This document shows positions 22,645 to 48,803 of a stretch of 64,000 bases of DNA, in pieces. This DNA comes from Gammaproteobacteria bacterium. Lineage in GTDB: Bacteria; Pseudomonadota; Gammaproteobacteria; Pseudomonadales; Pseudohongiellaceae. The notes below the pieces were generated by a model, which searched no databases, was not told where the DNA came from, and saw only the letters and a list, made by a program, of their open reading frames with translations. Each line of letters opens with the position of its first letter. Position 1 is the stretch's first letter. The stretch is taken from assembly GCA_947457195.1 (NCBI GenBank), contig CANGUU010000006.1:1-64000 (forward strand). Direction: 5' to 3'. The position numbers and the translations under genes are program-made.

Positions 22645-22658
22645 GGCGAGGTCCTCGC

Positions 22659-25106: not shown

Positions 25107-26050
25107 TGGCGGCGTCCGAAGCGACGTATTTCGGTGACGTGGGGCAGAGTGCCCTGGTAGGCGGTCAGCAGGAACAGGCTCGGGTCACCCCAGTCCTGAT
25201 CGAACTCAGCAGTGGGTTTGCTGGCCAGGAATTCCTCGAAACTGCCGCCCTTGAAGTAGTGAGTGCCGATCCGATCCGCCACGGTGGAGCAGAGTTCGAG
25301 CTGGGCTTCGATATGCGCGCGCCCGACTACGCCACCCGAGCCGGCAATCACGCGGGTTTGCGCATCGCACAGGGCCAGCAGCTGAGTCAGCGAATTGATC
25401 ATGCCGCCGATCCAGCCATTGGTGGCGAAGTCCACCAACGGGTAGCGGCCTACGCTGACCACGTCGCCCACGAACAGCACGTTGGCATCCGCTACCTGCA
25501 GGTAAAGGTCTCCGTCGGTGTGTCCCTGCGGCAGGTAGCCGTAGGTGAGCGGTCGGTTGAAGTGCAGTGTTTCGCTGTCGTAATAAAACGTCTTGCCCGG
25601 CAGTGCAGCGGCAGGGAGGGGTTGGTAACTGCGGTTCTCCCAGGTGCTGCGGATGACCGTGCCGAGCCAGAGTCTGGTGTTTTCGTGTGCCACGATGCTG
25701 GCCCCTGCAGCGCCCAGTCGCTGGTTGCAACCGATCTGGTCGCGGTGGCAGTGGCTGTTGAACAACAGCTCCGGCCGGCCTCCTGTCTGCGCCTCGACCA
25801 GGCTCAGCAGGGGCTCCGCCGCGGCCTCGTTACCCCCATCGACCAGGGCCACACCGTCCGGGCCACTGATGACCAGCACGTTGCCGCCGGCGCCGCTGAC
25901 CAGGGCGAGATCGGTCGTCAGGGATTGCCACGCGAGGTTGGCGGACGCCGCCCGCGCAGCCAGTGGCAGAGCGGGCATGGAGCCGAGCAGGGTGGCTGAC
26001 CGGAGTCCGGCGGCGAGCAGGCGGCGACGGGTGAGCAAGCGATAAGTCAT
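25103..26050 (-). CDS. Tat-exported metallo-beta-lactamase-fold protein, copy A
   Basis: The 315-residue protein has a twin-arginine signal (LTRRRLLAAG). The metallo-beta-lactamase fold is marked by NVLVISGPDGVALVDGG, NSHCHRDQIG, QGHTDGDLY and LFVGDVVSVGRYP. The canonical HxHxDH is HCHRDQ here, and the last zinc His region reads AGSGG instead of PGHG, so the binuclear site is incomplete. Related proteins occur in quinohaemoprotein and sulfur oxidation systems. It starts the four-gene block; the open frame to 26173 is not used because the Tat signal would be internal. Confidence 0.85.
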   Translation of the reverse strand: MTYRLLTRRRLLAAGLRSATLLGSMPALPLAARAASANLAWQSLTTDLALVSGAGGNVLVISGPDGVALVDGGNEAAAEPLLSLVEAQTGGRPELLFNSHCHRDQIGCNQRLGAAGASIVAHENTRLWLGTVIRSTWENRSYQPLPAAALPGKTFYYDSETLHFNRPLTYGYLPQGHTDGDLYLQVADANVLFVGDVVSVGRYPLVDFATNGWIGGMINSLTQLLALCDAQTRVIAGSGGVVGRAHIEAQLELCSTVADRIGTHYFKGGSFEEFLASKPTAEFDQDWGDPSLFLLTAYQGTLPHVTEIRRFGRRQ

Positions 26051-30268: not shown

Positions 30269-30898
30269 ATGCTGGCTGTCGATGACCTGCATTGCGAGCG
30301 CGACGAACGGGTGCTTTTCTCCGGTCTTTCGTTCGAAGTGAAGTCGGGCAGCCTGCTGCAGGTGCAGGGTGCCAACGGCAGCGGCAAGACCACGCTGCTG
30401 CGTATTCTGGCCGGACTCAACCAAGACTTTACCGGCAACCTGCACTGGCAGGGCCGCCCACGCGCCAGTGTGCTGACCGAGTTCCAGCAGTCGCTGTTCT
30501 ATCTCGGCCATGCACCAAGCGTGAACCGCACGCTGACGCCTTTGCAGAATCTGCGTTGGTTCTGCGCGCTACAGGGCTACGCCGATGACGAAGCGATCGT
30601 TGCGGCGCTGACGGCCCAGGGTCTTGCAGGCTATGCGGGAATTCCCTGTTGCCAATTGTCGGCCGGGCAGCAGCGACGAGTGAGCCTGGCGCGGCTCGAA
30701 CTCACGGCGGCGGCGCTATGGATACTCGATGAGCCCTTCACTGCCCTCGATCGCCTAGCGGTTGCAGCATTGGAGGGGCGTATCGGCCGGCATGCAGAGG
30801 CCGGAGGGGCCGTGGTGCTGACGACGCACCATGCGCTCAAGACGCCGTGGCCCCTGTCCATCCTTGATCTCGACGCACTGCGTCCGGAGGCACTGTGA
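30269..30898 (+). CDS. ccmA: Haem exporter ATP-binding subunit CcmA
   Basis: The 209-residue ABC ATPase powers release of holoCcmE in cytochrome c maturation System I. Walker A is GANGSGKTTLL, the signature is QLSAGQQRRVSLARL and Walker B is LWILDEPFTALD. The start MLAVDDLHCE matches the family; the open frame back to 30236 lies inside dcd. It overlaps ccmB by 4 bases (GTGA). Confidence 0.95.
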   Translation: MLAVDDLHCERDERVLFSGLSFEVKSGSLLQVQGANGSGKTTLLRILAGLNQDFTGNLHWQGRPRASVLTEFQQSLFYLGHAPSVNRTLTPLQNLRWFCALQGYADDEAIVAALTAQGLAGYAGIPCCQLSAGQQRRVSLARLELTAAALWILDEPFTALDRLAVAALEGRIGRHAEAGGAVVLTTHHALKTPWPLSILDLDALRPEAL

Positions 30899-31584
30899 CG
30901 CGGCAGGCACTCGGTCTCCTGGCTTGCCTGCGTGCCACGCTGCTGCGTGAACTGCAGATCGCCGTCAGCAGCCCGGGCAAGGTCGTCAATCCCCTTATGT
31001 TTTTCGTGATTGCCAGCGCGCTGTTCCCGCTGAGCGGCCGCCTCGATCTGGCCGTACTGGGCAGCATTGCGCCGGGGATTCTCTGGGTGACTGCGCTGCT
31101 TGCCGTGATGCTGTCGATGGAAGGATTGTTTCGCAGCGATTTTGACGATGGCACCCTCGAGCAATTGCTGCTGAGTCCGCAGCCGCTCTACTTCCACTTG
31201 CTGGTGAAGGTGCTGGGTCACTGGCTGGTGACCGGGTTGCCGCTGGTGGTGATCGCGCCACTGTTGGGGCTGTTGCTGAATCTCCCGGCGGCGGGCTATC
31301 AGCCCTTGATCCTTGGGCTGCTGCTCGGCACACCCACGCTCAGTCTCGTGGCTGCCATCGGCACGGCGCTCACGGTCGGTCTCGCCCGCAGTGGCCTGCT
31401 GCTTGCCGTGCTAATATTGCCGCTCTCGATTCCGGTGCTGGTGTTTGGCGCCGGCGTGGTCGACACGGCGTTGAATGGCCTGCCGGTTGCAGGGCTTTTC
31501 AGTCTGTTGGGAGCGCTGTTGCTGCTGGCTGCCAGTCTGGCGCCCCTTGCCATCGCAGCCTCGCTGCGCATCAGCGTGCAGTAG
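30895..31584 (+). CDS. ccmB: Haem exporter membrane subunit CcmB
   Basis: The 229-residue protein has six hydrophobic spans and the CcmB landmarks VVNPLMFFVIASALFPL, LDGTLEQLLLSP-like (DDGTLEQLLLSPQPLY) and ILPLSIPVLVFGAG. It starts with GTG overlapping the ccmA stop. With CcmA and CcmC it forms the complex that loads and releases haem on CcmE. A 99-base gap follows before ccmC. Confidence 0.95.
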   Translation: MTRQALGLLACLRATLLRELQIAVSSPGKVVNPLMFFVIASALFPLSGRLDLAVLGSIAPGILWVTALLAVMLSMEGLFRSDFDDGTLEQLLLSPQPLYFHLLVKVLGHWLVTGLPLVVIAPLLGLLLNLPAAGYQPLILGLLLGTPTLSLVAAIGTALTVGLARSGLLLAVLILPLSIPVLVFGAGVVDTALNGLPVAGLFSLLGALLLLAASLAPLAIAASLRISVQ

Positions 31585-31683
31585 GGGCCGTCGCTCCGCC
31601 ATGAACGCGCCAGCATGAACCTTCCACCGAGTTTCCACGTAAGCAGCGAGTACTCGACAGCGCGATTTCAGTAGACTCACCCC

Positions 31684-32436
31684 ATGATGCAATGGCTGTA
31701 CAAGCTGGGTTCGCCCAGACACTTCTATGAGATGACGACAGGGTTTTTGCCCTGGCTGGCCGGCGCCACCTTTCTGTTGCTGGGCATCGGGCTGGTGTGG
31801 GGTCTCGGCTTTGCCCCGCCCGACTACCAGATGGGCGACAACTTCCGCATCATCTACATCCACGTCCCCACGGCCACCGGTGCGATCTGGATCTACGCCA
31901 TGATGGCGGCCATGGCGGCCATGCATCTCGTCTGGAACCTCAAGGTGGCTGACATGGTGGCCAAGTCCTGCGGCATCGTCGGGACCAGTTTCTGCGCCAT
32001 TGCCCTCTTTACCGGGGCATTCTGGGGCAAGCCGACCTGGGGCACCTACTGGATCTGGGATGCCAAGCTGACTTCGTTCCTTATCCTGCTGTTCGTCTAC
32101 ATCGGTGTCATGGCCTTGCGCTCCGCCTTCGATTCGGAAACCAGTGCTTCCAAGGCAGCGTCTGTGCTGACCCTCGTGGGAGTCGTCAACCTGCCGATCA
32201 TCTACTACGCCGCCGTGTGGTGGAACACGCTGCATCAGGGTCCCTCAGTGCTTGGTGACCGGGATGCCAGCGCCAATCCGCCGGAGATCTGGATTCCGGC
32301 TTTCTTCAGCGGCTTTGGACTCATCGGTCTGCTTTTTCTGATCGTGATCCTGCACACGCGCAACGAGATCCTCTACCGTGAGCGCCGCGCGCAGTGGGTG
32401 CAGGAATTACTCACCAGGGAACCCATCCATGCCTGA
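31684..32436 (+). CDS. ccmC: Haem lyase/translocase CcmC
   Basis: The 250-residue membrane protein transfers haem to CcmE. The periplasmic Trp-rich motif WGTYWIWDAKLTS is complete, and the flanking conserved His residues are visible in IHVPTA and TLHQGPSV. Six membrane spans are predicted. It overlaps ccmD by 8 bases. Confidence 0.96.
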   Translation: MMQWLYKLGSPRHFYEMTTGFLPWLAGATFLLLGIGLVWGLGFAPPDYQMGDNFRIIYIHVPTATGAIWIYAMMAAMAAMHLVWNLKVADMVAKSCGIVGTSFCAIALFTGAFWGKPTWGTYWIWDAKLTSFLILLFVYIGVMALRSAFDSETSASKAASVLTLVGVVNLPIIYYAAVWWNTLHQGPSVLGDRDASANPPEIWIPAFFSGFGLIGLLFLIVILHTRNEILYRERRAQWVQELLTREPIHA

Positions 32437-32671
32437 GTTCCAGTTCGAGGGCGTAGCGGATTTCTTCGCGATGGGTGGGCACGCCTACTTCGTGTGGATG
32501 TCGTACGGCTTCTTTTTCGTGGTGCTGGCCTTCAATCTGTGGCTGCCACGTCACCAGCGTTTCCGACTGCTGCGCCTGTTGAGGGCCCGCCAGACTCGAC
32601 AGGCGCGAAGCGAAAGTCCGCCGCCCGCGCGTGCCGCAGCGCCAGAGACCACCCCATCCCCAGGAGCGTAG
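32429..32671 (+). CDS. ccmD: Cytochrome c maturation small protein CcmD
   Basis: The 80-residue protein has one membrane span, GGHAYFVWMSYGFFFVVLAF, and an Arg-rich cytoplasmic segment, both usual for CcmD. The C-terminal tail (PPPARAAAPETTPSPG) is longer than usual. It helps CcmABC release holoCcmE. It lies between ccmC and ccmE with an 8-base overlap and a 2-base gap. Confidence 0.9.
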   Translation: MPEFQFEGVADFFAMGGHAYFVWMSYGFFFVVLAFNLWLPRHQRFRLLRLLRARQTRQARSESPPPARAAAPETTPSPGA

Positions 32672-32673
32672 GC

Positions 32674-33153
32674 ATGCACCCAGCCCGCCAGCAGAGAGTG
32701 ATGATCGTCGCCAGCATCCTGGTGGGCAGTGCGCTTGCCATCGGCCTGCTGCTCTACGCCTTCAACGAGGGGCTGAACGTCTTCTTTACCCCAACCGAGA
32801 TCGCCGAAGGCAAGGTGCGACCCGAGCAGAACATCCGCATCGGAGGCATGGTGAAGGTGGGTAGTCTGCGCAAGGAAGGCTTGGAAGGCACGCGCATCGA
32901 ATTCGTTGCCACCGATACCAACAAGGACATCCCGGTCGTCTATACGGGCGTGCTGCCCGACCTGTTTCGGGAAGGTCAGGGTGTGGTGGCAGAGGGCAGA
33001 CTGGATGCCGATGGCGTGTTCCAGGCCAGTACCATACTGGCCAAGCACGACGAGAACTACATGTCCGCCGAAGTGAAGGCGGCGCTGGAGGCGGCCAAGG
33101 CCAGACAGGCCGGCAACGGACTGCCACCCGCAGCAGAAGGAGTTTCGCCATGA
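32674..33153 (+). CDS. ccmE: Haem chaperone CcmE
   Basis: The 159-residue protein has an N-terminal anchor (MIVASILVGSALAIGLLLY) and an OB-fold periplasmic domain. The haem-binding His and Tyr lie in LAKHDENYMSAE. It carries haem covalently from CcmC to CcmF. The frame upstream of 32674 overlaps ccmD and is not used; an AGGAG site precedes the ATG. Confidence 0.96.
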   Translation: MHPARQQRVMIVASILVGSALAIGLLLYAFNEGLNVFFTPTEIAEGKVRPEQNIRIGGMVKVGSLRKEGLEGTRIEFVATDTNKDIPVVYTGVLPDLFREGQGVVAEGRLDADGVFQASTILAKHDENYMSAEVKAALEAAKARQAGNGLPPAAEGVSP

Positions 33154-35159
33154 TCCCCGAACTGGGCAATTTTGCGTTGATGCTGGCCCTCGGACTGGCC
33201 TTGCTGCAATCGGCCTTGCCGCTCATCGGTGCGGCGAACCAGAACCCGACCTGGATGGCGCTCGGCCGCCCCCTCAGCGCCGGTCTCTTCGTTTTCCTGC
33301 TGCTGGGCTTCGGCTGTTTGGCCTATGCCTTCCTGCACGATGACTTCTCCGTGGCCTACGTGGCCCGCAACTCCAACACGGCGTTGCCCGTCTACTACAA
33401 GTTTGCCGCGGTCTGGGGCGCGCATGAGGGCTCTCTGCTGCTCTGGGTGCTGATTCTGGCCAGCTGGGGCTACGCCGTGAGCCTGTTCAGCCAACGGCTG
33501 CCTCTCGACATCGTGGCGCGGGTACTGGCGGTGATGGGACTAATTACCGCCGGTTTCCTGGTCTTTCTGCTGTTCACGTCCAACCCTTTCGAGAGGCTGC
33601 TGCTCAACACCCCGCGTGAGGGCACCGACCTCAACCCGCTGCTGCAGGATTTCGGGCTCACCGTGCATCCACCGTTCCTCTACATGGGCTATGTGGGGTT
33701 CTCGGTGGCTTTCGCGTTCGCCATTGCAGCGCTGCTGACCGGCAAGCTCGATGCCGCATGGGCGCGCTGGACGCGGCCATGGACCAATGCCGCCTGGGCC
33801 TTCCTCACCATCGGCATCATGCTGGGTTCATGGTGGTCCTACTACGAACTGGGGTGGGGTGGCTGGTGGTTCTGGGATCCGGTCGAGAATGTCTCCTTCA
33901 TGCCCTGGCTGGTGGGTACCGCACTTATCCACTCGCTGGCGGTCACCGAAAAGCGCGGCGTGTTCAAGAGCTGGACGGTGCTGCTGGCGCTGGCCGCTTT
34001 TTCGCTCAGCCTGCTGGGCGCCTTCATCGTGCGCTCCGGGGTAATCACGTCGGTGCATGCCTTTGCCGTGGACCCCGAGCGTGGCATGGTTCTGCTGGCG
34101 CTGCTGCTGCTGATCATCGGGTCGTCGCTGCTGCTCTACGCCCTGCGTGCCCCCGTGGTACGGGGAACAGCGACCTACGGGGCCAATTCCCGCGAGGTGT
34201 TCCTCTTGCTCAACAACCTGCTGCTGGTCGTCAGCATGGCCACCATTCTGCTCGGCACCTTGTTTCCACTCATACACGAAGCGATCTACGGCGAAGCCAA
34301 CCGCGTTTCCGTCGGTCCGCCGTACTTCAACGCGGTGTTCGTGCCACTGATGGCGATTCTTGCGTTCCTGCTGGGCGCCTCGACCTTTGCCCGCTGGAAG
34401 AAGACCTCCTTCGCCCATCTTCGCCAGAACCTGTCCCTGGTCCTGCTGGCCAGTGTTGCACTCGGCGTGGCGGTGCCGCTCGCGGTGACCGGTGGCGTGA
34501 ATCCGCCGATCATGCTGGCACTCGCGCTGGCCCTCTGGATCGTGTTCGGCATCGCCAAGGATCTCTGGGACAAGACCGCCCACCGCAGCCCGCGCCTGCC
34601 TGCCCTGCTGGGTCTGGGCCGCAGCTACTTCGGCATGCAGTTGGCTCACCTCGGGGTGGCCGTGCTGATCTGCGGTGTCTGTTTCACCAGTCACTACAGT
34701 ATCGAGCAGGATGTGCGCATGTCGCCCGGCGACGAACTCGACGTGAGTGGTTTCACTTTCCGCTTCGACGGGGTGGAAGAAGTGCCGGGGCCCAACTATA
34801 CGGCTGTGCGTGGCACCATCAGCGTTTCCCGCGGCGGGGAGCCGTACATGACCATGCACCCGGAAAAGCGCACCTACCACGCTCGCGGCGACGTTCAGAC
34901 CGAGGCCGACATCGATGTCGGCTTCTTCCGTGACCTGTTCACCGCTCTGGGTGATCCGCGCGGCGACGAGGCCTGGGTGGTCCGTATCCACTTCAAGCCC
35001 TTCGTCTTCTGGATCTGGTTCGGAGCCCTGCTGATGGCGGGCGGCGGTGTGCTGGCCGTACTCGACAAGCGCTACCGGCACCGGTCCATTCCCGCGACAC
35101 ACCCGCAGACGGCCGCCGGCGCAGGGGCGGTGGGCACGGCTGGAGTGATCCAATCATGA
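33150..35159 (+). CDS. ccmF: Haem lyase CcmF
   Basis: The 669-residue multi-span protein attaches haem to apocytochromes. The WWD motif GWGGWWFWDPVENVSFMPWL is intact, and histidines occur at HEGSLLLWVL and TVHPPFLYMGYVG. A periplasmic domain at the C-terminus (DVSGFTFRFDGVEEVPGPNY) is typical. It overlaps both ccmE and ccmG by 4 bases. Confidence 0.97.
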   Translation: MIPELGNFALMLALGLALLQSALPLIGAANQNPTWMALGRPLSAGLFVFLLLGFGCLAYAFLHDDFSVAYVARNSNTALPVYYKFAAVWGAHEGSLLLWVLILASWGYAVSLFSQRLPLDIVARVLAVMGLITAGFLVFLLFTSNPFERLLLNTPREGTDLNPLLQDFGLTVHPPFLYMGYVGFSVAFAFAIAALLTGKLDAAWARWTRPWTNAAWAFLTIGIMLGSWWSYYELGWGGWWFWDPVENVSFMPWLVGTALIHSLAVTEKRGVFKSWTVLLALAAFSLSLLGAFIVRSGVITSVHAFAVDPERGMVLLALLLLIIGSSLLLYALRAPVVRGTATYGANSREVFLLLNNLLLVVSMATILLGTLFPLIHEAIYGEANRVSVGPPYFNAVFVPLMAILAFLLGASTFARWKKTSFAHLRQNLSLVLLASVALGVAVPLAVTGGVNPPIMLALALALWIVFGIAKDLWDKTAHRSPRLPALLGLGRSYFGMQLAHLGVAVLICGVCFTSHYSIEQDVRMSPGDELDVSGFTFRFDGVEEVPGPNYTAVRGTISVSRGGEPYMTMHPEKRTYHARGDVQTEADIDVGFFRDLFTALGDPRGDEAWVVRIHFKPFVFWIWFGALLMAGGGVLAVLDKRYRHRSIPATHPQTAAGAGAVGTAGVIQS

Positions 35160-35689
35160 GCAACAGGGCCAAGCTGTTTCTGCCGGTCGTCTTCTTCCTC
35201 GGCATGCTGGGCCTCCTGCTGTATGGTCTTGGACGCAATCCCGGTGAGGTGCCCTCGGCCCTTCTGAATCGTGCGCTGCCGGCCTTCAGCAAGCCGGATC
35301 TCCTGGACCCCGCGCGCACGGTGAGCGTCGATGATCTGCGTGGTGGAGTGTTTCTGGTGAATGTCTGGGCGACCTGGTGTCCGCCCTGCCATGTCGAGCA
35401 TCCCTACCTCGTGGAGATCAGCGGGCGCGAGCCCGACGTGACCTTCGTCGGCGTCAATTACAAGGACGACGTGGAGGCCGCCCGTACCTTTCTGGCCGAG
35501 CGCGGTAATCCCTTCAAAATCAACATCGCCGATGTCGATGGCCGGCTCGGCGTCGATCTGGGTGTGGCAGGCGCGCCGGAAACCTTCCTCATCGATGCCA
35601 CCGGCACCATCCGCTACAAGCACGTCGGCGTGATCGACAATCGTGTATGGCAGGAGACCTTCGTGCCGTTGTTGGCTGAGCTGCGCTAA
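35156..35689 (+). CDS. ccmG: Thiol:disulfide interchange protein CcmG/DsbE
   Basis: The 177-residue membrane-anchored thioredoxin reduces apocytochrome cysteines. It has an N-terminal anchor, the active site VWATWCPPCHVEHP, the acidic GVNYKDD motif and the cis-Pro GAPETF segment. These are all CcmG-specific rather than generic TlpA features. Confidence 0.95.
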   Translation: MSNRAKLFLPVVFFLGMLGLLLYGLGRNPGEVPSALLNRALPAFSKPDLLDPARTVSVDDLRGGVFLVNVWATWCPPCHVEHPYLVEISGREPDVTFVGVNYKDDVEAARTFLAERGNPFKINIADVDGRLGVDLGVAGAPETFLIDATGTIRYKHVGVIDNRVWQETFVPLLAELR

Positions 35690-35708
35690 TGCCACCTCGG
35701 AGATGCCC

Positions 35709-36203
35709 ATGATCGCCAAGGCTCGAAAGCCTCTTTTGCAGTGGCTGCTGTGCATGCTGGTTTGGCTGGCCGGCGGTGGCGCCTTCGGTCAGTTGGCGAT
35801 CGAGGAGCGGTCTTTCGCCGACGCCGAGCAGAAGGCGCGCTACAACGACCTCATTGCGGACCTGCGCTGCCCCAAGTGCCTGAACTCCAATCTCGCCGGC
35901 TCCGACGCACCCATCGCTGCCGACCTGCGCAATGAGATCCATGACCAGATCATGGCAGGCCGCAGTGATGCTGAAATCCTCGACTATCTGGTGGAACGCT
36001 ACGGGGAGTTTGTTCTGTACGATCCGCCCCTGCATCCCGGTACGGCCCTGCTGTGGTTCGGCCCGCCCGTGTTGCTGTTGCTTGGCGTGGTGATCGTTCG
36101 CCGCATGCTGGCGGCGACCGGCCCCGGCGCTGCGCCCGCCGTCCTGACGCCTGCCGAACAGCAACGCCTGCAAGACCTGCTGAAACAGCAGTCGGAGCCC
36201 TGA
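35709..36203 (+). CDS. ccmH: Cytochrome c maturation protein CcmH (CcmL type)
   Basis: The 164-residue protein has a signal peptide, the conserved LRCPKCLNSNLAGSDAPIA redox motif and a C-terminal membrane span (LLWFGPPVLLLLGVVIV). It reduces or presents apocytochrome cysteines. ATG 35709 has GGAG at 6-base spacing; ATG 35703 lies right on that site and is unlikely. Confidence 0.95.
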   Translation: MIAKARKPLLQWLLCMLVWLAGGGAFGQLAIEERSFADAEQKARYNDLIADLRCPKCLNSNLAGSDAPIAADLRNEIHDQIMAGRSDAEILDYLVERYGEFVLYDPPLHPGTALLWFGPPVLLLLGVVIVRRMLAATGPGAAPAVLTPAEQQRLQDLLKQQSEP

Positions 36204-36204
36204 C

Positions 36205-37452
36205 ATGACCGCAATCTACCTGCCGATGCTGCTGCTTTCGCTGCTGGCGATGGCCTTTGTGCTGCTGCCGCTCAGCCGCCAGCCGGGGGCAGGCGTGGCC
36301 GTACAGAAGCTGCAGCGCGCGGCGAAGAACCGTGAAGTCTTCGAGCAGCGCGTGGCCGAGCTCGCGCGCGAGGTGCAGGATGGCGTCATCGCCGCCGAAG
36401 ACCATGAGCGCATGCTGGCCGAACTGCAGCGCACGTTTCTCGCCGACATGCAGGCCCTCGACAGCGTCGAGCCAGGGCCCGGCGTGCCCCGCGCCAGCGC
36501 CACCTGGGTGGGCTGGACACTGGCACTGCTGGTGCCGCTGCTGGCCTTCGGCCTCTATCGGCAGCAGGGTTCTGCCGAGGATCTGCAACTGCCGACGCTG
36601 GTCAATGCGGTCGGTGCCGCTGCCGACGAATCATCACAGCGTGCTGCCCTCGACGACCTGACGACTTTCCTCCAGCAGCGCTTTGCGCGCCGTCCCGAAG
36701 ATCTGCAAAACGGCTACATGCTGGGTACGCTTCTGCTGAGTCTCGAGCGTTACCCCGAGGCCATTACCACCTTCGAGCAGATGCTTGCGGCCATGGAACC
36801 CACTCCTGATCGTGCCACCGTGCTCGGCCAGTTGGCGCAGGCACGTTATCTGGCAGCCGACTCGGTCATTACCCCCGAGGTGAAGGCGGTGATGGACGCA
36901 GCGCTGGTGCTCAATCCCAATGAACAGGCGGTGATGAGTCTCTCCGCGATCGACGCGTTCCTGCGTCAGGATTTCGCTGCTGCACTGCAATTCTGGCGGC
37001 GGCAGTTGGCCGACCTGACCCCGGGCAGTGCCGATGCCGAGGAACTGCGTCAGCGCATCGCCATGGTGGAGGCCAGCTTGCCGCCTGAGCAGGCAGCCAT
37101 CGCTGCGGGTCCGAGCATCGAAGTCGTCGTCGACGTGGCACCGGAACTGTTGGCGCGGGTCACTCCCGACATGCGGCTTTTCGTGTTTGCGCGCAGCCCA
37201 GCCATGCCCATGCCGATCGTGGCGCAAAACCTGGCTGTGCCGGTATTTCCATTCACGCTGAAGCTCGACAATTCCATGTCGATGGCCGGCGCCCAGCTCG
37301 AGCAGGTCCCGGAACTGGTGATTGGGGCCCGTCTTTCGGTCTCGGGTCAGGCGATCGGCCAGAGCGGGGATCTCGAGTCACTGTCTGCTCCCTTCACGCT
37401 GGCCGCCCAGCCCGGCCCCATTGCCCTGACCATCGATACGGTCAGACCGTAG
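36205..37452 (+). CDS. ccmI: Cytochrome c maturation protein CcmI
   Basis: The 415-residue protein has two N-terminal membrane spans, a leucine-zipper-like stretch between them (AVQKLQRAAKNREVFEQRV) and a periplasmic TPR domain (for example LLSLERYPEAITTFEQMLAA). A C-terminal beta domain follows. It is the apocytochrome chaperone that delivers substrates to CcmFH. It starts directly after ccmH and ends the operon. Confidence 0.93.
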   Translation: MTAIYLPMLLLSLLAMAFVLLPLSRQPGAGVAVQKLQRAAKNREVFEQRVAELAREVQDGVIAAEDHERMLAELQRTFLADMQALDSVEPGPGVPRASATWVGWTLALLVPLLAFGLYRQQGSAEDLQLPTLVNAVGAAADESSQRAALDDLTTFLQQRFARRPEDLQNGYMLGTLLLSLERYPEAITTFEQMLAAMEPTPDRATVLGQLAQARYLAADSVITPEVKAVMDAALVLNPNEQAVMSLSAIDAFLRQDFAAALQFWRRQLADLTPGSADAEELRQRIAMVEASLPPEQAAIAAGPSIEVVVDVAPELLARVTPDMRLFVFARSPAMPMPIVAQNLAVPVFPFTLKLDNSMSMAGAQLEQVPELVIGARLSVSGQAIGQSGDLESLSAPFTLAAQPGPIALTIDTVRP

Positions 37453-38845: not shown

Positions 38846-39772
38846 ATGAAACCGGGGTCAGTGCATTTCGTGGGCGCTCTTCTGGCGTTGGTTTTCTCGT
38901 GGTCCGGGGCGGGGGTGGCGCGCGCGGCCGAAGCCTACTCGGCAAGGCCGCTCGCCGAGCATCTCTTCCAGGTCGCCGGACCCCGCGGCAACACGCTGGT
39001 GGCCGTCGATGCCGACGGCCTCATCCTGATCGATGGTGTGCCGGAAGCTGAGGCCGCCGGTTATTGGGATTTCGTGCAGGGCCTCACGGGCGAGTCGCGG
39101 GTCAAGGCCTTGGTCGTGAGTCACTGGCACGCCGAAGTCAATGGTCTCAACGCACTGGCTGTCGCGGCCGGGGCAGAACTGATCGCCCACGACAATACCC
39201 GCCAGTGGCTGGCCGCCACCATCCGGCGTCGCGGCGATACCATTCTGCACAGGCCCGTGCCGGTTGGTGAACTGCCGAACCGCGTATTCCACGACACGCT
39301 TAGCCTGCCATTCCGGGACAGCAGCATCGAACTGGGCTGGCTGTTGCATGCTCACACGGATGGCGATCTCTACGCGCTTTTCCCCGGCCAACACGTGCTG
39401 TACACAGGACCGGCCGTGCGCACCGATGCCTGGAGCACCGTCGACGAGGCGACCAACGGTTTCGTGGGTGGGCTGACCGATGCGTACGACAAGCTCGCCC
39501 AGCAGATCACCGGTGAAACCCACATCGTCCCGTTCAGCGGCCCGGTGATCGATCAGACGGCGTTCGCGGAACAGGCCGCCGTCTACAAGAAGCTCATGCA
39601 GGAAATGGTAGCCCTGCTGCGCCAAAGCCGCAGTGCCGATGAAGTGGTCGCGGCCAACCCGGCGATCGGACTCAAGCCGGAATGGGGCGATGCCTCGGCA
39701 TTTCTCGACGAGGGGTTCCGCAGTTTTTACGGGCATCTGCGCGAAACGCGCCATGTCGGTATCATGCCCTGA
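38846..39772 (+). CDS. Metallo-beta-lactamase-fold protein, copy B, with degraded zinc site
   Basis: The 308-residue protein has a Sec signal peptide (ends near ARAAEA) instead of the Tat signal of copy A. The fold is recognisable by NTLVAVDADGLILIDGVPEA, VSHWHAEVNG, HAHTDGDLYALF and ATNGFVGGLTDAYDKL. The HxHxDH motif reads HWHAEV, the bridging Asp region reads LYTGP, and the last His region reads FSGP. Several zinc ligands are thus missing, so it may be a binding protein rather than a hydrolase. It opens the second four-gene block. The start at 38846 has a GGGAGA site. Confidence 0.82.
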   Translation: MKPGSVHFVGALLALVFSWSGAGVARAAEAYSARPLAEHLFQVAGPRGNTLVAVDADGLILIDGVPEAEAAGYWDFVQGLTGESRVKALVVSHWHAEVNGLNALAVAAGAELIAHDNTRQWLAATIRRRGDTILHRPVPVGELPNRVFHDTLSLPFRDSSIELGWLLHAHTDGDLYALFPGQHVLYTGPAVRTDAWSTVDEATNGFVGGLTDAYDKLAQQITGETHIVPFSGPVIDQTAFAEQAAVYKKLMQEMVALLRQSRSADEVVAANPAIGLKPEWGDASAFLDEGFRSFYGHLRETRHVGIMP

Positions 39773-39804
39773 CTAGGTCGGCTGGCTCGCCTGAGGAGCA
39801 GTAC

Positions 39805-42261
39805 ATGAAAGTCGGATCGATTGGTTTCCTGCGCCGCAGCGCACTGGTCACCTCCCTGTTGCTCTCTGCCGTCGTGTGGGCGGACGCGTCGGAGCACGCC
39901 TCGAAGGTGGCCGCCACCTTCAGCCGTTTCGACGAGGCCGCGGACAGATTCGCGTTCCTGCAGGAAAACTGTGTTGGTTGCCACAACGCCGAAGACTGGG
40001 CCGGCAGCCTTGCCTTCGACCTGATCGGTCCCAACGAAATCGCGGATCAACCGGAGCTCTGGGAGAAAGTGGTCAGCAAGCTGCAGGGCCGGATGATGCC
40101 GCCCGCCGGACAGCCCCGCCCGGATGCCGGGACCACCGACGAGTTCATTGCCTGGGTCGAGCAGTACCTCGATCACGCGGCCAGCACCGAGCAGCACGCC
40201 GGTCGCGTCGGTCTGCACCGTCTGAATCGCAAGGAGTACGCCAATGCCGTGCGCGATCTGTTCGGCATAGACGTGGATGCCAGCTCGCTGCTGCCGGCCG
40301 ATGCCTCCGTCGATGGCTTTGACAACGTCGCGCAGGCGCTGCGCGCCTCACCCGCCCTGCTTGAGCAATCCCTGACGGCTGCCCGTGTCGTGGTATCCCA
40401 GGCGGTGGGGACGCCTGCGCCGCGCGCCGGGGGCAGTACCTACTTCGCCACGGGCAATCAGTACGGACACATTGCCGGGCTGCCGCTCGGCACCCGCGGC
40501 GGTCTGGTCGTGGACCACTACTTTCCGGCGGATGGGGAGTACGTGCTCAACGTCGGCAACCTGGCGGCAGCGCTGTGGGTCACCAACCAGGAGTTCACCC
40601 ACACGGTGATCGCGACGCTCGATGGCGAGCGTTTTTTCGAACTCGACATTGGAGGCGGAGAGGATCTCAAGGCCATCGACCAATTGGGTGACCCGGCGGT
40701 GGACGCCATCAACAGCAAGCTGAAGAACATAAAGTTCGCCGCCAAGGCCGGGGCACACCGTCTGGGCGTCACCTTCCTGCACCGTTCGTTTGCGGAGTTC
40801 GAGGGCACGCTGTCGCCGATGCTGCGCACCACCGGGGCCGACGTCATCTCGCTAAACCAGATCGAGGTGCAGGGGCCGTTCAATCCGGCCGGTCTCAGCG
40901 ATACCCCAGCGCGTCAGCGCATCTTTACCTGCCGGCCTGCCATGGCAGCCGAAGAGCGTGGCTGCGCGGAACAGATCATCGCCCGCATGGCGAGGCTGGC
41001 GTTCAGGGGTCCGGTGGCGTCCGGCGACAAGGAGAAACTGCTGCAGATCTATGAAGACGCCGCCCGGCAAGCCGGCTTTGAGCAGGGCGTCCGGCGAGCA
41101 CTGACTGCCATCCTGGCCAGCCCCAAGTTCCTGTACCGTGTGGAAGAGGTACCAGCCGATGCGCTGCCAGGCTCGATCCATGCGCTGACTGACCTCGAGC
41201 TGGCTTCGCGTCTGTCCTTCTTCCTGTGGAGCAGCATTCCCGACGAGGAACTGCTCGACCTCGCCGAGCAGGGCGAACTGGGAGATGACAAGGTCTTGCG
41301 CGCCCAGGTTTCTCGCATGCTCGGCGATCCCCGTGCCGCCGCGCTGGCCGGCAATTTTGCCCACCAGTGGCTCAACCTCGCGGCACTCGACGACATCGAG
41401 CCGGATCCGGCCCTGTTCCGCGATGTCGATCGTGGTATCCGCGGACTGCTGAAGGAAGAGGTCACCCGCTTCACTGCCGATCTCTTCCTCGGCAATGCCC
41501 CAGCCACCGCACTCCTGACAGCCGACTTCACCTACCTCAACGAACGTCTGGCCCTCCACTACGGCATCAACGACGTGAAGGGGGATGCCTTCCGCAAGGT
41601 CATGCTGAAGGACCCTGCGCGTTTCGGCCTGCTGGGCAAGGGCGGCATTCTCATGGCGTCCTCCTATCCCGACCGTACCTCACCGGTCCTGCGCGGCAAG
41701 TACGTGCTCGAGTACATCCTCGGTACGCCACCCCCCCTGCCGCCACCGAACGTGGAGGCACTCATTGAAAACAAGCCGGGCCAGCGGCAGATGACGATTC
41801 GTGAGCGGCTCGAGGTGCACCGGACCAACCCCAGTTGCAGTGGCTGCCATGGATTCATCGATCCGCTCGGCTTTGCCCTCGAAGGCTTCGACGCCGTCGG
41901 CCGCTCGCGGACGGTGGATCGCTTCGTGGGGGCACCGGTCGACATCGATGGCGTTCTGCCTGACGGTCAGAGTATCGAAGGCATCGCCGAACTGCGGGAG
42001 GCCATCATGCAGCGCCCGCAGTTGTTCGTGGAGAATCTGGCGCAGAAACTGTTGTTGTATGCCATCGGTCGGCCGATAGAAGCCAAGGACATGCCCGCGG
42101 TGCGTCGCATCGTGCGCGAATCCGCCGGCCGGCAATACGCCTTCCAGGACATCGTGCAGGGCATCGTGGCGAGTGAGCAGTTCCGCAAGGTACAGGTTGA
42201 CGAGAAACCGACGGCGGCTGCCGTGGCCGGGCTCCTGCAGCCCGTGGCCGGCGACCCGTGA
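39805..42261 (+). CDS. DUF1592-family diheme cytochrome-like protein, copy B
   Basis: The 818-residue protein has a signal peptide, a first haem motif CVGCH at residues 56-60 and a second CSGCH near the C-terminus. Domain order is as in copy A, with LHRLNRKEYANAVRDLFG, AGLPLGTRGGLVVDHYFPAD, ASPKFLYR and RLSFFLWSSIPD. Copies A and B are clearly homologous end to end but diverged. GAGGAG lies at the right distance from ATG 39805; the open frame from 39682 overlaps the previous gene. Exported diheme enzyme or structural redox subunit of unknown substrate. Confidence 0.9.
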   Translation: MKVGSIGFLRRSALVTSLLLSAVVWADASEHASKVAATFSRFDEAADRFAFLQENCVGCHNAEDWAGSLAFDLIGPNEIADQPELWEKVVSKLQGRMMPPAGQPRPDAGTTDEFIAWVEQYLDHAASTEQHAGRVGLHRLNRKEYANAVRDLFGIDVDASSLLPADASVDGFDNVAQALRASPALLEQSLTAARVVVSQAVGTPAPRAGGSTYFATGNQYGHIAGLPLGTRGGLVVDHYFPADGEYVLNVGNLAAALWVTNQEFTHTVIATLDGERFFELDIGGGEDLKAIDQLGDPAVDAINSKLKNIKFAAKAGAHRLGVTFLHRSFAEFEGTLSPMLRTTGADVISLNQIEVQGPFNPAGLSDTPARQRIFTCRPAMAAEERGCAEQIIARMARLAFRGPVASGDKEKLLQIYEDAARQAGFEQGVRRALTAILASPKFLYRVEEVPADALPGSIHALTDLELASRLSFFLWSSIPDEELLDLAEQGELGDDKVLRAQVSRMLGDPRAAALAGNFAHQWLNLAALDDIEPDPALFRDVDRGIRGLLKEEVTRFTADLFLGNAPATALLTADFTYLNERLALHYGINDVKGDAFRKVMLKDPARFGLLGKGGILMASSYPDRTSPVLRGKYVLEYILGTPPPLPPPNVEALIENKPGQRQMTIRERLEVHRTNPSCSGCHGFIDPLGFALEGFDAVGRSRTVDRFVGAPVDIDGVLPDGQSIEGIAELREAIMQRPQLFVENLAQKLLLYAIGRPIEAKDMPAVRRIVRESAGRQYAFQDIVQGIVASEQFRKVQVDEKPTAAAVAGLLQPVAGDP

Positions 42262-42317
42262 AGAACCGTAGGGCCGGGCACTCAGCCGGGCCCGCCAGTC
42301 AGCAGAGGAGCACATCG

Positions 42318-43598
42318 ATGTTCATCAGCAAGAAGCATCTTTCCCGCCGACATGTCCTGCGCGGCGTTGGCGCCAGCATCGCGCTGCCCATGCTCGATGC
42401 CATGGTGCCGGCGGCCAGCGCCCAGCCAGCCAGTCGTCTGCGGCTTGGCTTCGTCTATGTGCCGCATGGGGCGGTGGAGGAGAGCTGGACCCCGAAAACC
42501 ACGGGTGCGGATTTCGAACTCAGCAAGATCCTGCAGCCGCTGGAGGATTTCCGTTCCTACATGACCGTGGTCAGCGGTCTGCGCAACAAGCCCGGCGAAA
42601 GCCCCGATCCGCATGCCATCAAAGCCGGCTGCTGGCTGCGCTGTGTTGCCCCGGAGGGCACGGCCAATCCGGATGACGGCATCAGCATCGATCAGCTGGC
42701 GGCCCGCAAACTGGGCGCCGAGAACCCTTTCGCCTCGCTGGAAGTCACCACGCTCGAGGGAGGGGGGGGCAGCTTTGCCTCGTCGATAGCCTTTCGTACG
42801 CCGACCCAGCCGCTGCCGATGGAAGGCAATCCGCGCAAGCTCTACTACCGTCTGTTCGGTCAGGGCGACACCGCTGAGGAGCGTGCAGCCATCACGGCGG
42901 AAACCGGCAGTCTGCTCGATTTCGTGCTCGAGGATGCGTCGGCACTGAACCGTACGCTTGGCAGTCATGATCGCGTATTGATGGGCGAGTACCTCGACTC
43001 CATCCGCGAGATCGAGATGCAGATGCAGAAGTTGGCCCAGCAGGACCTGAGCCAGGTGGCCATTCCCGATGCGCCGGTCGGCACTCCGGGACAGTTCCCG
43101 GCCCATCTCGATCTGATGTACAGCCTGATGGCGCTGGCCTATCAGGCAGACCTCAGTCGTGTGATCACTTTCCTGTCCGATCGTGAAGTGAGCATGCGCA
43201 CCTTCACGCACATCGGTATCTCCGACGCCTTCCACCCGCTTTCGCACCACCAGAACGATCCGGCCAAGCTGGAACGGCTCTCGACGGTGCAGCAGTGGTA
43301 TCTGTCGGGTTTCGCCAAATTCGTGAAGACGCTGTCCCAGATGCCGGACGGCGATGGCAGCGTACTCGATCACTCCCTGCTGCTCTACGGCAGTGGCATG
43401 GCCAACAGCAACCTGCACAACTGTGATCCAGTGCCGGCGCTGCTGGTGGGCAGGGCGAACGGCGCGTTGGCCGGCAACCGGCATCTGGCCTTTGCCCAGG
43501 ACACCCCGCTGGCGAACCTCATGCTGAGTATCCTTCACAAGGCCGACATCGGCGTCGAGCGTTTTGGTGACAGCACCGGTACGCTGGCCGACGTGTGA
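42318..43598 (+). CDS. DUF1552 protein with Tat-type signal, copy B
   Basis: The 426-residue protein begins MFISKKHLSRRHVLRGVG, a twin-arginine type signal as in copy A. Shared blocks are GFVYVPHGAVEESWTP, ISDAFHPLSHHQND and YGSGMANSNLHN. It is about 13 residues shorter than copy A and lacks the GEGSCDRNYGC cysteine region. AGAGGAG precedes the start. Function of the family is unknown; constant pairing with DUF1592 suggests one complex. Confidence 0.88.
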   Translation: MFISKKHLSRRHVLRGVGASIALPMLDAMVPAASAQPASRLRLGFVYVPHGAVEESWTPKTTGADFELSKILQPLEDFRSYMTVVSGLRNKPGESPDPHAIKAGCWLRCVAPEGTANPDDGISIDQLAARKLGAENPFASLEVTTLEGGGGSFASSIAFRTPTQPLPMEGNPRKLYYRLFGQGDTAEERAAITAETGSLLDFVLEDASALNRTLGSHDRVLMGEYLDSIREIEMQMQKLAQQDLSQVAIPDAPVGTPGQFPAHLDLMYSLMALAYQADLSRVITFLSDREVSMRTFTHIGISDAFHPLSHHQNDPAKLERLSTVQQWYLSGFAKFVKTLSQMPDGDGSVLDHSLLLYGSGMANSNLHNCDPVPALLVGRANGALAGNRHLAFAQDTPLANLMLSILHKADIGVERFGDSTGTLADV

Positions 43599-43632
43599 CA
43601 CGGTCTGTCCATTCCACGTCCGGAGCCTTCCG

Positions 43633-45120
43633 ATGAGAACCACGCTTGTTCTTCCGATTGCCCTGCTGGCGCTGCTGGCGTCACCGCCCGCGTGGTCCCA
43701 GAGTCTCGTGCAGTTGCTGGAAGCCAAAGCCTTCAGCGACGCCGAGGCGTTGCTGAGGTCCGGCGTGGACGTGAATCTGCCCAGCAGCGACGGCACCACG
43801 CCGCTGCACTGGGCGGTGTACCACGGCCATCTCGACCTGACCAAGGCGCTGCTGCGCGCCGAAGCCGAACCAAACAGCCGCAACGACTACGGCTCCTCGC
43901 CGCTGATGGAGGCTGCCATTGCCGGCAATCTGCCGCTGATCGAAGTGCTGCTCGGGGCCGGTGCCGACGTCGAATCTCCCAATCTCGAAGGTCAGACCGC
44001 GCTGATGGCGGTAGCGCGAACCGGTAACATCGAGGCGGCGCGTCTGCTGATCAGCCACGGTGCATCCGTCAACACCGCAGAAAAGTGGGGCGGGCAGACC
44101 GCGCTGATGTGGGCCAGTGCGCGCCAGCAACCCGCCATGGTGGACTTCCTCATCGACCAGGGAGCAGGAGTCGATGTGCGCGCCATCGATCGCAATTGGG
44201 AGCGACGTGTCACGGCAGAACCCCGGGTGAAGGAGATGTTCCAGGGAGGCCTCACGGCGCTGCTTTACGCCGCCCGGGAGGACTGCCTCGACTGCGTGCG
44301 GCACCTGCTGGATGCCGGCGCCGACATCAACAAGCCGGATCCCGACAATGTGTCGCCGCTCATCATGGCGTTGCTCAACATGCGCTTCGATATCGCCAGG
44401 CTGCTGATCGAGCGTGGTGCCGATGTGAATCAGTGGGATTACTGGGGACGCACCCCCCTGTATGCCGCGACCGATACCAATATCGTGCCCCTTAGCCAGC
44501 GCGGTGATCTGCCCCCGGTGCAGGACACCACGGGCCTGGAAGTGGCGCGCCTGCTGCTTGAAAAAGGTGCTGACCCCAACTACTACCTCAAGCTGCCGCC
44601 CCTGCCGCGCGAGATCGCCTATGACCGCGCCGGCGACAATCCGGTCATGACGACCGGTTCCACGCCGCTGCAGCGCGCCGCCTACGGCGGTGATGTCGAG
44701 ATGATGAAGCTGCTGTTGGCGAACGGTGCCGACTGGACCATGGGCAACATCAATGGTGTGACCCCGCTGATCGCCATGACCAACAGCGGCGGCAGTCGCG
44801 GCCGCAACAAGGATGAAGCCAAGATGATCGCCGGCCTCGAGGTGCTGCTGGATGCCGGGGCAGACATCAACCAGCGAGGGGGGGCGAACGGCGAAACGCC
44901 GCTGCACACCGCCGCCCGACTCAACATGCTGGGGGTGGTGCAGTTCATCGTCGACCATGGTGGCAACCTGTTCGCCAAGGACGCGCGCGACCTGCTGCCG
45001 CTCGACTACGCCACCGGCAAGGCCGACAGTCAGAGCTTCGGCAATTTCAACGTGGTCGGCGAGTTGCCCGAGATGGCGGCTCTGCTGCGCACGTTGATGG
45101 ACCAGACCAGCGCGCAATGA
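43633..45120 (+). CDS. Secreted ankyrin-repeat protein, copy B
   Basis: The 495-residue protein has a signal peptide (MRTTLVLPIALLALLAS) and about ten ankyrin repeats matching copy A in order, for example GTTPLHWAVYHGHLDLTKAL, GADVESPNLEGQTALM and GADINKPDPDNVSPLIMA. The CxxC in a central repeat is kept (EDCLDCVRHL). It probably acts as a periplasmic scaffold. Its stop overlaps the start of the oxygenase gene by 4 bases (ATGA). Confidence 0.88.
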   Translation: MRTTLVLPIALLALLASPPAWSQSLVQLLEAKAFSDAEALLRSGVDVNLPSSDGTTPLHWAVYHGHLDLTKALLRAEAEPNSRNDYGSSPLMEAAIAGNLPLIEVLLGAGADVESPNLEGQTALMAVARTGNIEAARLLISHGASVNTAEKWGGQTALMWASARQQPAMVDFLIDQGAGVDVRAIDRNWERRVTAEPRVKEMFQGGLTALLYAAREDCLDCVRHLLDAGADINKPDPDNVSPLIMALLNMRFDIARLLIERGADVNQWDYWGRTPLYAATDTNIVPLSQRGDLPPVQDTTGLEVARLLLEKGADPNYYLKLPPLPREIAYDRAGDNPVMTTGSTPLQRAAYGGDVEMMKLLLANGADWTMGNINGVTPLIAMTNSGGSRGRNKDEAKMIAGLEVLLDAGADINQRGGANGETPLHTAARLNMLGVVQFIVDHGGNLFAKDARDLLPLDYATGKADSQSFGNFNVVGELPEMAALLRTLMDQTSAQ

Positions 45121-45746
45121 GCCAGCCGCTGGCAGGGTTGCAGGTCGATACTGACCTGCTCGCCGCCAGGCTTGCCAGCGCGGGCTACGCTGTCATCGAC
45201 GAAGGGCTGGACCCCGACTTGTTCCGCGGACTTTGCGACGAAGCGAGGCGAGCGCTGGCCGAGCAGGGTAGGGCAGCCGGCGTCGGTCGGGGGTCCGGTT
45301 TCCAGGTCGATCACCGCGTGCGCGACGATCAGATTTGCTGGTTGGCTCCCAACCTTACGGCGGGTTCCCGCTATCTCGCGGCGATGGAGCGGCTGCGGCT
45401 GGCCTTGAATCGCGCGCTGTTTCTCGGCCTGTTCAACTTCGAGGCCCACTATGCGCGCTACGCGGCGGGCGCGCGCTACCAGCGTCATCGTGATGCATTC
45501 CGCGGCGAGCGCAGCCGCCGGCTTTCCACTGTGCTCTACCTCAATCCGGACTGGTCGCCGGACCAGGGCGGCGAGTTGGTGCTCTATGCGGCGGACGGCG
45601 ACGCGGAACTGCAGCGGATCGCGCCGGTGGGCAATCGCTTGGTGATCTTCCTGAGCGAGGAATTCCCCCATGAGGTGCTGCCCGCCCACGGCGAGCGCTA
45701 CAGCGTGGCCGGCTGGTTTGGCAGCGCAGCGACCGGTAGCCGGTAA
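45117..45746 (+). CDS. 2-oxoglutarate/Fe(II) oxygenase, bacterial prolyl-hydroxylase type
   Basis: The 209-residue protein has no signal peptide. Iron ligands are visible in YQRHRDAFRG (HxD) and EEFPHEVLP (distal His), with the 2-oxoglutarate Arg in RYSVAGWF. The block LSTVLYLNPDWSPDQGGELV resembles the Pseudomonas PHD-type prolyl hydroxylase known to modify EF-Tu. It couples 2-oxoglutarate decarboxylation to substrate hydroxylation. Translational coupling to the ankyrin gene is clear, but the two proteins should be in different compartments. It is convergent with modC. Confidence 0.85.
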   Translation: MSQPLAGLQVDTDLLAARLASAGYAVIDEGLDPDLFRGLCDEARRALAEQGRAAGVGRGSGFQVDHRVRDDQICWLAPNLTAGSRYLAAMERLRLALNRALFLGLFNFEAHYARYAAGARYQRHRDAFRGERSRRLSTVLYLNPDWSPDQGGELVLYAADGDAELQRIAPVGNRLVIFLSEEFPHEVLPAHGERYSVAGWFGSAATGSR

Positions 45747-47530: not shown

Positions 47531-47540
47531 GAACGCCCCG

Positions 47541-48548: not shown

Positions 48549-48768
48549 GCAGGGCTTTCTCCTTCTGAAGTGTTGGGGCAAGCGTATCAGGTTTGGGTTG
48601 GGCCAAGCATCCTCTGACCCGCTCGACGGCGGCTGTTCACTGCCGTGGGTTCTGGCGTCGCCACAGCAGGGCAGCCCGCACGGTCCGCAACCGCGTATCA
48701 AAGGTGTGGTCTTTGCCGACCACCCTTTTCGCTGCAGTGAATGCATGCCAAGCCCGACCGGCTGGGCG

Positions 48769-48774
48769 TATAAT
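48769..48774 (+). promoter_or_regulatory. -10 box of the moaA promoter
   Basis: A consensus TATAAT lies 30 bases before the moaA ATG. No good -35 is seen at 16-18 bases, so it may need an activator. With a start near 48781 the leader would be only about 23 bases, too short for a molybdenum-cofactor riboswitch. Confidence 0.6.
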
Positions 48775-48803
48775 TTCCGGCAGATTTTCCGACGACCTTC
48801 ATC

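Follow-up and report, generated by a model that had tools for sequence, protein, structure and literature searches.

Copy B of a DUF1592–DUF1552–ankyrin gene module in a Pseudohongiellaceae genome is one of fifteen paralogous modules

The closest described relatives of the genes considered here are the PSCyt/PSD proteins, which were originally reported from the genome of a planctomycete and whose function was called unknown in a survey of 2017 (PMC5615132). The available passages of that survey report that PSCyt3 genes of Verrucomicrobia and Planctomycetes usually adjoin a second family of unknown function and that they are frequent in some freshwater metagenome-assembled genomes (MAGs), and they propose, from gene context, a carbohydrate role for the PSCyt genes of freshwater Verrucomicrobia. 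The present analysis concerns a set of four genes, termed copy B, on a stretch of 64,000 nucleotides from a gammaproteobacterium of the family Pseudohongiellaceae (contig CANGUU010000006.1; this whole stretch is referred to as the window). Copy B codes for a protein of the metallo-beta-lactamase (MBL) fold, a DUF1592-type cytochrome, a DUF1552 protein and an ankyrin-repeat protein, and a second such set, copy A, is found on the opposite strand of the window.

Like the PSCyt3 pairs of PMC5615132, copy B combines a PSCyt3-type cytochrome carrying PSD domains with a second family. It differs from them by an additional ankyrin gene, by an MBL-fold gene in one clade of such modules, and by the occurrence of the modules in Gammaproteobacteria and Acidobacteriota; neither an ankyrin nor an MBL partner of the PSCyt3 pair is mentioned in the passages of the survey, its supplements lying outside the search. 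The only experimental lead found among relatives is Cbp2D of Cellvibrio japonicus, a protein with a related cytochrome domain, for which the accessible part of the publication states that one cytochrome domain donates electrons to copper lytic polysaccharide monooxygenases (PMC8981238). In contrast to the modules, Cbp2D is a single fusion with a carbohydrate-binding module (CBM) and a YceI-like domain, and no DUF1552, ankyrin or MBL partner is mentioned in that part. Likewise, a DUF1592 protein of Cellvibrio with a CBM2, and thus again DUF1592 together with a carbohydrate-binding module, appears in a table row on a lignocellulose-degrading community, where module partners are not stated (PMC6004670), and a passage of PMC7789669 lists domains of the DUF1592/1588/1587/1585 type for facultative anaerobic Pseudomonas. 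A search for literature pairing DUF1592 with DUF1552 found no paper, subscription papers and supplements lying outside its reach. The kind of pair formed by the two families is nevertheless already known, and it is the partnership with ankyrin that is not mentioned in the literature passages.

A panel of fifteen paralogous modules

The four genes of copy B follow each other on the + strand between positions 38846 and 45120 in the order MBL-fold, DUF1592, DUF1552 and ankyrin, with ATG starts at 38846, 39805, 42318 and 43633 and with intergenic gaps of 32, 56 and 34 bases. Pfam matches comprise Lactamase_B (25.6 bits, cut-off 22.7), DUF1592/1588/1585/1587/1595, DUF1552 (283.7 bits) and seven stretches of ankyrin repeats, and the main families are the same in copy A (DUF1552 286.6 bits, cut-off 30), which has the four genes arranged as in copy B and lies at 19796–26050 of the - strand, at a distance of 12.8 kb. 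The four families, their place and common transcription order, and the position of the two copies on opposite strands about 13 kb apart had been given in a preliminary description made from the sequence alone and were all found again. Of what that description overlooked, a fifth gene (45117–45746) belongs to the locus itself, and 13 more modules lie elsewhere in the genome. A scan for promoters and terminators gave nothing exceeding shuffled sequences.

The source genome (2.8 Mb on 139 contigs) contains 17 PSCyt3 matches and 15 DUF1552 matches. Contigs C75 and C126 share 149 identical bases inside a DUF1592 gene (L022 9078-9226; L016 1-149) and therefore represent one module, beside an RPE65-type oxygenase gene, that was split by the assembly; a 16th module, as the 17 PSCyt3 matches might suggest, is thereby ruled out. 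One further PSCyt3 match is a divergent protein of 1108 residues directly followed by a DUF1501 gene (L023 3024-7661), on a contig for which the Ank_2 search found no ankyrin gene; this is a comparable pairing, but with a different family. With the split module counted once and this DUF1501-linked protein set aside, there are 15 DUF1592–DUF1552 cassettes. The 70 Ank_2 stretches found on 14 contigs belong to 15 genes, and all 15 genes are located in modules, where they lie before, after or divergent from the other genes. MBL-fold genes are present in six of the 15 modules, and in the trees of all three core genes (DUF1592, DUF1552 and ankyrin) these six fall into a single supported clade. The comparisons show that copy B belongs to a panel of 15 paralogous modules with DUF1592, DUF1552 and ankyrin as their core, to which particular lineages have added MBL-fold and other genes; what had been taken as a unit of four genes is more aptly seen as a core of three with MBL-like and other genes as optional parts.

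The sequence blocks that had been noted as common to A and B are real, but they are not private to this pair. LGTRGG is found in nine of the 16 DUF1592 proteins of the genome (two of the 16 being fragments), DAFHPLSHHQN in three of 15 DUF1552 proteins (those of A, B and the C19 module), and a CxxC in six of 15 ankyrin proteins.

Inheritance of the module and the relationship of copies A and B

Congruence of the family trees, put forward in the preliminary description as a check, was compared for the 65 of 75 modules from seven genomes in which all three core genes were long enough (G011 15, G000 14, G001 14, G003 13, G033 4, G012 3 and G019 2). Out of 62 bipartitions, 46 are common to the DUF1552 and DUF1592 trees, 38 to the DUF1552 and ankyrin trees and 41 to the DUF1592 and ankyrin trees, while 200 label shuffles for each comparison gave at most two. 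Since this agreement of the core-gene trees lies far beyond shuffles, the module is inherited as a unit; in this sense the idea of a unit is supported for the three core genes, and the MBL gene is an optional part (6 of 15 modules). Label shuffling also erases species relatedness, and part of the agreement is therefore species history; the agreement among paralogues, however, e.g. of m13 with m18 in all four own-genome trees, is not explained in this way.

The distribution of the genes was followed at several taxonomic levels. The number of DUF1552 genes and that of Ank_2 stretches show a Spearman correlation of 0.95 in 36 genomes of the family and of -0.04 in 21 genomes from elsewhere in the order, where ankyrin genes thus serve other uses; as 74 candidates were scored in the ankyrin-rich genomes, Ank_2 counts may be low there. 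Each of the 11 genomes of the genus (own genome included) has 10–21 copies of DUF1552, each of the four genomes of genus g2 has 16–17, and the other genera of the family have 0–5. A sample of the class gave one match each in five of 275 other genomes, in a scan that scored eight of the 15 own-genome DUF1552 candidates and returned eight matches there, the full count being 15. Among module-bearing MAG genomes, all 20 that were checked have at least three DUF1552 copies (maximum 39), but this figure is not a population estimate, since multi-copy genomes are likelier to be sampled.

A DUF1552 profile scan, with a query built from ankyrin-linked modules, found at least 586 loci, of which the best 80 were analysed. 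By record title, 49 of them are from Pseudomonadota, 30 from Acidobacteriota and one from Actinomycetota; the fetched stretches contain DUF1592 in 76, ankyrin in 73 (45/49, 27/30 and 1/1 in the three phyla, respectively) and MBL in 42 cases. One of the loci, L067 (CAMDML010000032.1), is in a MAG titled Klebsiella pneumoniae and carries a module; the species label looks wrong, as its contig has the number and length of C32 in G003, which belongs to the same genus as the window. In the seven genomes, an ankyrin match lies within 5 kb of 70 of the 75 DUF1552 rows and a DUF1592 match within 5 kb of 67.

The preliminary description had explained copies A and B by a whole-module duplication with subsequent divergence. 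One local inverted duplication of the four-gene block would account for the common gene order on opposite strands some 13 kb apart; moreover, the closest ankyrin protein to that of B in BLAST searches is that of A, and a sister relationship of A and B is not rejected for ankyrin (p = 0.139) or for MBL (p = 0.104). However, for both DUF1592 (p = 0.0048) and DUF1552 (p = 0.0064) the same constraint is rejected, and in the own-genome trees, which exclude the fragmentary DUF1592 of m16 and m22, copy B pairs with the module of contig C55 (DUF1592 98/99, DUF1552 100/98, MBL weakly 84/89), a pair that is not recovered in the ankyrin tree. Protein identities between A and B amount to 32–33% for MBL, 45% for DUF1592, 50% for DUF1552 and 48–49% for ankyrin, and megablast between the two blocks gave no match, sensitive blastn only segments of 63–78%.

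The wider comparisons also speak against a local event. With the modules of six relatives added (75 DUF1552), orthologues of B are found in three of the six other genomes, namely G001, G003 (two) and G011, and an orthologue of A in G001 only; as G011 belongs to another genus, the split between A and B must be old. In a quick tree with 74 further rows from public MAGs, which came with long-branch warnings and leaves out, like alignment A3, six of the 80 DUF1552 loci (L056, L061, L062, L067, L072 and L093), copy A falls into a supported set of seven that includes L037, L038, L040, L046 and L060, and Acidobacteriota members occur within several of the module types, some with the same gene order. 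Since module types are spread over genera and some of them over Acidobacteriota, the types are older than the window's genus, and transfer of modules between lineages is likely. A local duplication as the origin of A and B is thus ruled out for two of the four genes, DUF1592 and DUF1552, and is very improbable for the block as a whole. In its place, A and B are to be seen as two members of an old, co-inherited panel of paralogues.

The module proteins and their possible function

All 15 DUF1552 proteins of the genome have a leader with a twin arginine (RR). H101, H308, H312 and H369 are conserved in 76 of 76 sequences, H313 in 75, S311 in 74, H391 in 73 and H52 in 62. A structure model (mean predicted local distance difference test, pLDDT, 89) gave Z scores of at least 8 for 482 of 869 aligned chains, the best with Z 17.1 and a root-mean-square deviation (rmsd) of 4.2 over 264 residues, and the best 50 rows (Z 15.8–17.1) are sulfatases, nucleotide pyrophosphatases and alkaline phosphatases; by this model, the overall fold is that of the alkaline phosphatase superfamily. 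A viral structure library gave no match to the model at E 0.001. The fold as such would suit an ordinary periplasmic hydrolase of the sulfatase or phosphatase kind, with the cytochrome serving regulation or some separate purpose. In sulfatases and phosphatases, however, the metal ligands are acidic and the nucleophile is a Ser, Thr or Cys, whereas the conserved residues that, by their order along the chain, would lie at the expected pocket of DUF1552 are histidines. The usual partner of DUF1552 is, in addition, a di-haem cytochrome, and a plain hydrolase is accordingly unlikely, even if PSCyt genes often adjoin sulfatase genes in Verrucomicrobia MAGs, as a passage of PMC5615132 reports.

In the DUF1592 proteins of both A and B, the domains PSD3, PSD5, PSD4, PSCyt3 and PSD2 follow each other in this order, all above cut-off. 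Two CXXCH motifs are present in 59 of 60 such proteins, L037 with its single motif being cut at the locus start, and Met99, His673 and the pair Cys377/Cys388 are invariant in all 60; alignment A4 leaves out four of 62 long DUF1592 rows (L062, L067, L072 and L090). Met99 is a candidate axial haem ligand, and the two cysteines, which lie outside the haem motifs, perhaps form a disulfide. In the structure model (pLDDT 90), residues 206–363 resemble CBM35/36/6 at a borderline level (best Z 7.5, rmsd 3.5, 107 aligned residues), and in a fold search with the whole model the list was filled by this borderline region alone, the haem and helical parts being barely covered. Motifs and model together identify DUF1592 as a di-haem c-type cytochrome that has, at a borderline level, a carbohydrate-binding-like domain.

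The two c-type haem motifs and the invariant Met99 would also be in keeping with DUF1592 being itself the enzyme, of a peroxidase or oxidase kind, which DUF1552, ankyrin and MBL-like proteins assemble or protect in a defence against peroxide or radicals. Periplasmic ankyrin proteins have elsewhere been linked to catalase, as in Pseudomonas aeruginosa, where AnkB supports the catalase KatB and thus likewise ties a periplasmic ankyrin protein to a haem protein; this is an analogy only, since here there is no catalase and the ankyrin protein is larger. Catalase or peroxidase families are not among the Pfam and NCBIfam matches of the module proteins, and 15 diverged copies with differing neighbours suit a panel for substrates more than a stress response, which makes this reading quite unlikely.

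The assignment of the MBL protein to the metallo-beta-lactamase fold comes from Pfam, NCBIfam and weak PDB matches (E 0.0015). HxHxDH is kept in three of 36 module-linked MBLs of the seven genomes, and nine lack even HxHx[D/E]; the MBL of A reads HCHRDQ and keeps the later GD, that of B reads HWHAEV without it. A working zinc hydrolase was rejected on account of this degenerate motif. Among the best NCBIfam resemblances of four module MBLs are the quinoprotein relay zinc metallohydrolases TIGR04558 and TIGR04559, which share the fold, but from which the module proteins differ by their degenerate zinc motif and by scores of 24.8–54.6 bits that do not reach the cut-offs of 280–300. As regards export, leaders identified by eye are Sec-like on most ankyrin copies, RR on several MBLs and Sec-like on most other module proteins, and suggest that the module proteins are exported.

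Similarity of the ankyrin proteins to NCBIfam models of type IV secretion ankyrin effectors is at the level of the repeats (best 138 bits, cut-off 600). The multiplicity and diversity of the modules might also recall anti-phage or anti-bacterial systems diversified by an arms race, the more so as both ankyrin proteins, of A and of B, have matches to ankyrin models in PADLOC-DB, and the fifth gene of copy B has one to a CRISPR-associated 2-oxoglutarate (2OG) model. The ankyrin matches are, however, again at repeat level, PADLOC gave no match for DUF1592, DUF1552 (those of B being tested) and both MBLs, and orthologous modules are retained across species. With PADLOC matches to ankyrin repeats and the 2OG protein only, a defence system was rejected and is most improbable.

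Fifteen sets of presumably exported haem and histidine-rich proteins and of ankyrin proteins, which evolve together, point to an uncharacterised periplasmic machine existing in many versions. The reading that we tentatively favour is that of a periplasmic redox machine composed of DUF1552, the di-haem DUF1592 and an ankyrin scaffold, and kept as a panel for different substrates. DUF1552, folded in the cytoplasm and then exported by the twin-arginine translocation (Tat) pathway, would hold a redox metal on its alkaline-phosphatase-superfamily scaffold, with histidines in place of the acidic metal ligands and the nucleophile, and would act in the periplasm as the oxidant of a small substrate. 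DUF1592, with its two haems and its CBM-like beta-sandwich, would bind the substrate or a partner and pass electrons towards the respiratory chain, while the ankyrin protein would be a scaffold that gives specificity to, or assembles, the DUF1552/DUF1592 pair of its own module; each copy might serve a different substrate with the help of accessory enzymes (a 2OG oxygenase for B, a quinone oxidoreductase for A). The proposal is consistent with the cytochrome c maturation genes beside copy B, with a CcmI-like neighbour of the B orthologue in G003, and with the redox genes that recur beside orthologous modules (O3, O4, O6 and A; see below). It is also supported by the 15 DUF1552 and 15 ankyrin genes, each of the latter in a DUF1592–DUF1552 module, by the congruent trees and by the correlation within the family. 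The proposal draws further on the presence of ankyrin at 73 of 80 loci, the two CXXCH motifs, the invariant histidines and the DUF1552 fold.

Several points weigh against this proposal. The electron path and the substrates are guesses, and we know of no biochemically characterised member. Searches by sequence for solved relatives found none for DUF1552 and just two chance-level rows for DUF1592 (E 0.22 and 0.36), and Foldseek gave no match to the beta-sandwich of DUF1592 at E 0.001. That H52, H101, H308/H312 and H391 stand where phosphatases have a metal-binding Asp, the nucleophile and the later ligands of the metals is inferred from the order of strands and helices in the model and from familiar motifs, and not from a residue-level superposition. 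The ankyrin-linked query biases the set of 80 loci towards ankyrin association. Five of the 75 DUF1552 rows have no nearby ankyrin and eight no DUF1592, some of them at contig ends; three g3 genomes share an orthologous DUF1552 (L121, L123 and L143) with no DUF1592, ankyrin or MBL match nearby, and G013, G024, G031 and G039 have one weak DUF1552 match and zero Ank_2 matches. Finally, the lean of neighbouring genes towards oxidative or aromatic chemistry is an impression, formed without a background count.

A further-reaching version is doubtful though conceivable: the modules would represent a new class of periplasmic oxidoreductases, Tat-exported, with a histidine-rich redox metal site on an alkaline-phosphatase-type scaffold, each with its own CBM-like di-haem cytochrome and private ankyrin scaffold, present in at least three phyla (by record title), where 3–39 copies of DUF1552 in each genome would form a substrate panel comparable to the SusC/D pairs of other bacteria. 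The partnership with ankyrin, with its near-constant ratio and congruent trees, indicates which proteins must work together and predicts copy-specific partners, and the question what PSCyt cytochromes oxidise becomes testable with matched versus mismatched sets. Should the modules act on phenolics, humic compounds or sugars from lake water, which is speculation, they would matter for freshwater carbon turnover.

Neighbouring genes

The features of the window are given in Table 1. Orthologous modules retain some of their neighbours: the 2OG-Fe(II) oxygenase gene is also found beside the B orthologues in G001 and G003 (53% identical), and WrbA-type and DUF3570-type genes beside the A orthologue in G001. 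At O3, a pyrroloquinoline-quinone (PQQ) propeller protein with a cytochrome domain adjoins in two other genomes, one of another genus; at O4, a flavin mononucleotide (FMN)-dependent dehydrogenase in two genomes; at O6, a small protein with a sub-cut-off cytochrome match; and at O14, ABC transporter genes in three genomes. For others, e.g. O1, O5, O7, O8 and O9, the comparison of orthologues gave no common non-module neighbour. Such copy-specific conserved neighbours fit the earlier idea that the two copies may serve two substrates or conditions.

Table 1. Positions of the module genes, motifs and adjacent genes in the window
Feature	Position	Strand	Remarks
Copy A accessory gene, WrbA-type NAD(P)H:quinone oxidoreductase	19172..19774	-	21 bases past copy A; 84% identical beside A orthologue in G001
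Copy A ankyrin protein	19796..21310	-	
Copy A DUF1552	21325..22662	-	
Copy A DUF1592 di-haem cytochrome	22659..25106	-	
Copy A MBL-fold protein (HCHRDQ)	25103..26050	-	start uncertain, up to 26173
Cytochrome c maturation genes: ABC ATPase, CcmB, CcmC-like, CcmE, CcmF, redoxin, CcmH, CcmI-like	30269..37452	+	in the stretch between the two copies
Copy B gene 1, MBL-fold protein with leader	38846..39772	+	degenerate zinc motif HWHAEV vs HxHxDH; later GD replaced by GP
Copy B gene 2, DUF1592-type (PSD3-PSD5-PSD4-PSCyt3-PSD2) di-haem c-type cytochrome with beta-sandwich domain	39805..42261	+	
First haem motif CXXCH (CVGCH), copy B DUF1592	39970..39984	+	C, C and H in 59/60 rows; L037 cut there
Second haem motif CXXCH (CSGCH), copy B DUF1592	41836..41850	+	kept in 60/60 rows
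Copy B gene 3, DUF1552 (HXXSHH), Tat-like RR leader, predicted alkaline-phosphatase-superfamily fold	42318..43598	+	
HPLSHH motif, copy B DUF1552	43233..43250	+	H308 and H312 in 76/76, H313 in 75
Copy B gene 4, ankyrin-repeat protein, Sec-like leader	43633..45120	+	CxxC at residues 218-221
Fifth gene, small 2OG-Fe(II) oxygenase	45117..45746	+	overlaps ankyrin stop codon by 4 bases

Within the own genome, two modules are flanked by RPE65-type oxygenase genes (one of them once C75 and C126 are joined), three by TonB receptors and three by quinoprotein-type genes; Pfam was run on one TonB member and on two of the quinoprotein type, and the others were assigned as cluster mates; a tannase, an O-methyltransferase and a halogenase gene flank one module each. 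Beside copy A (26154–29015) lie genes for a DUF3570 protein, a small open reading frame, a thioredoxin-like protein and a protein of 296 residues without family, and two of these, DUF3570 and the thioredoxin-like gene, also have a counterpart each next to the A orthologue of G001. In G003, a CcmI-like gene and a gene of the major facilitator superfamily precede the B orthologue (L131). Copy B is followed in the window (45783–49814) by an ABC ATPase gene with a TOBE domain and a permease gene, presumably a pair of the molybdate type to judge by resemblance, an amidohydrolase gene and a MoaA-type radical SAM gene, and the same ATPase/permease pair also follows the B orthologue in G001.

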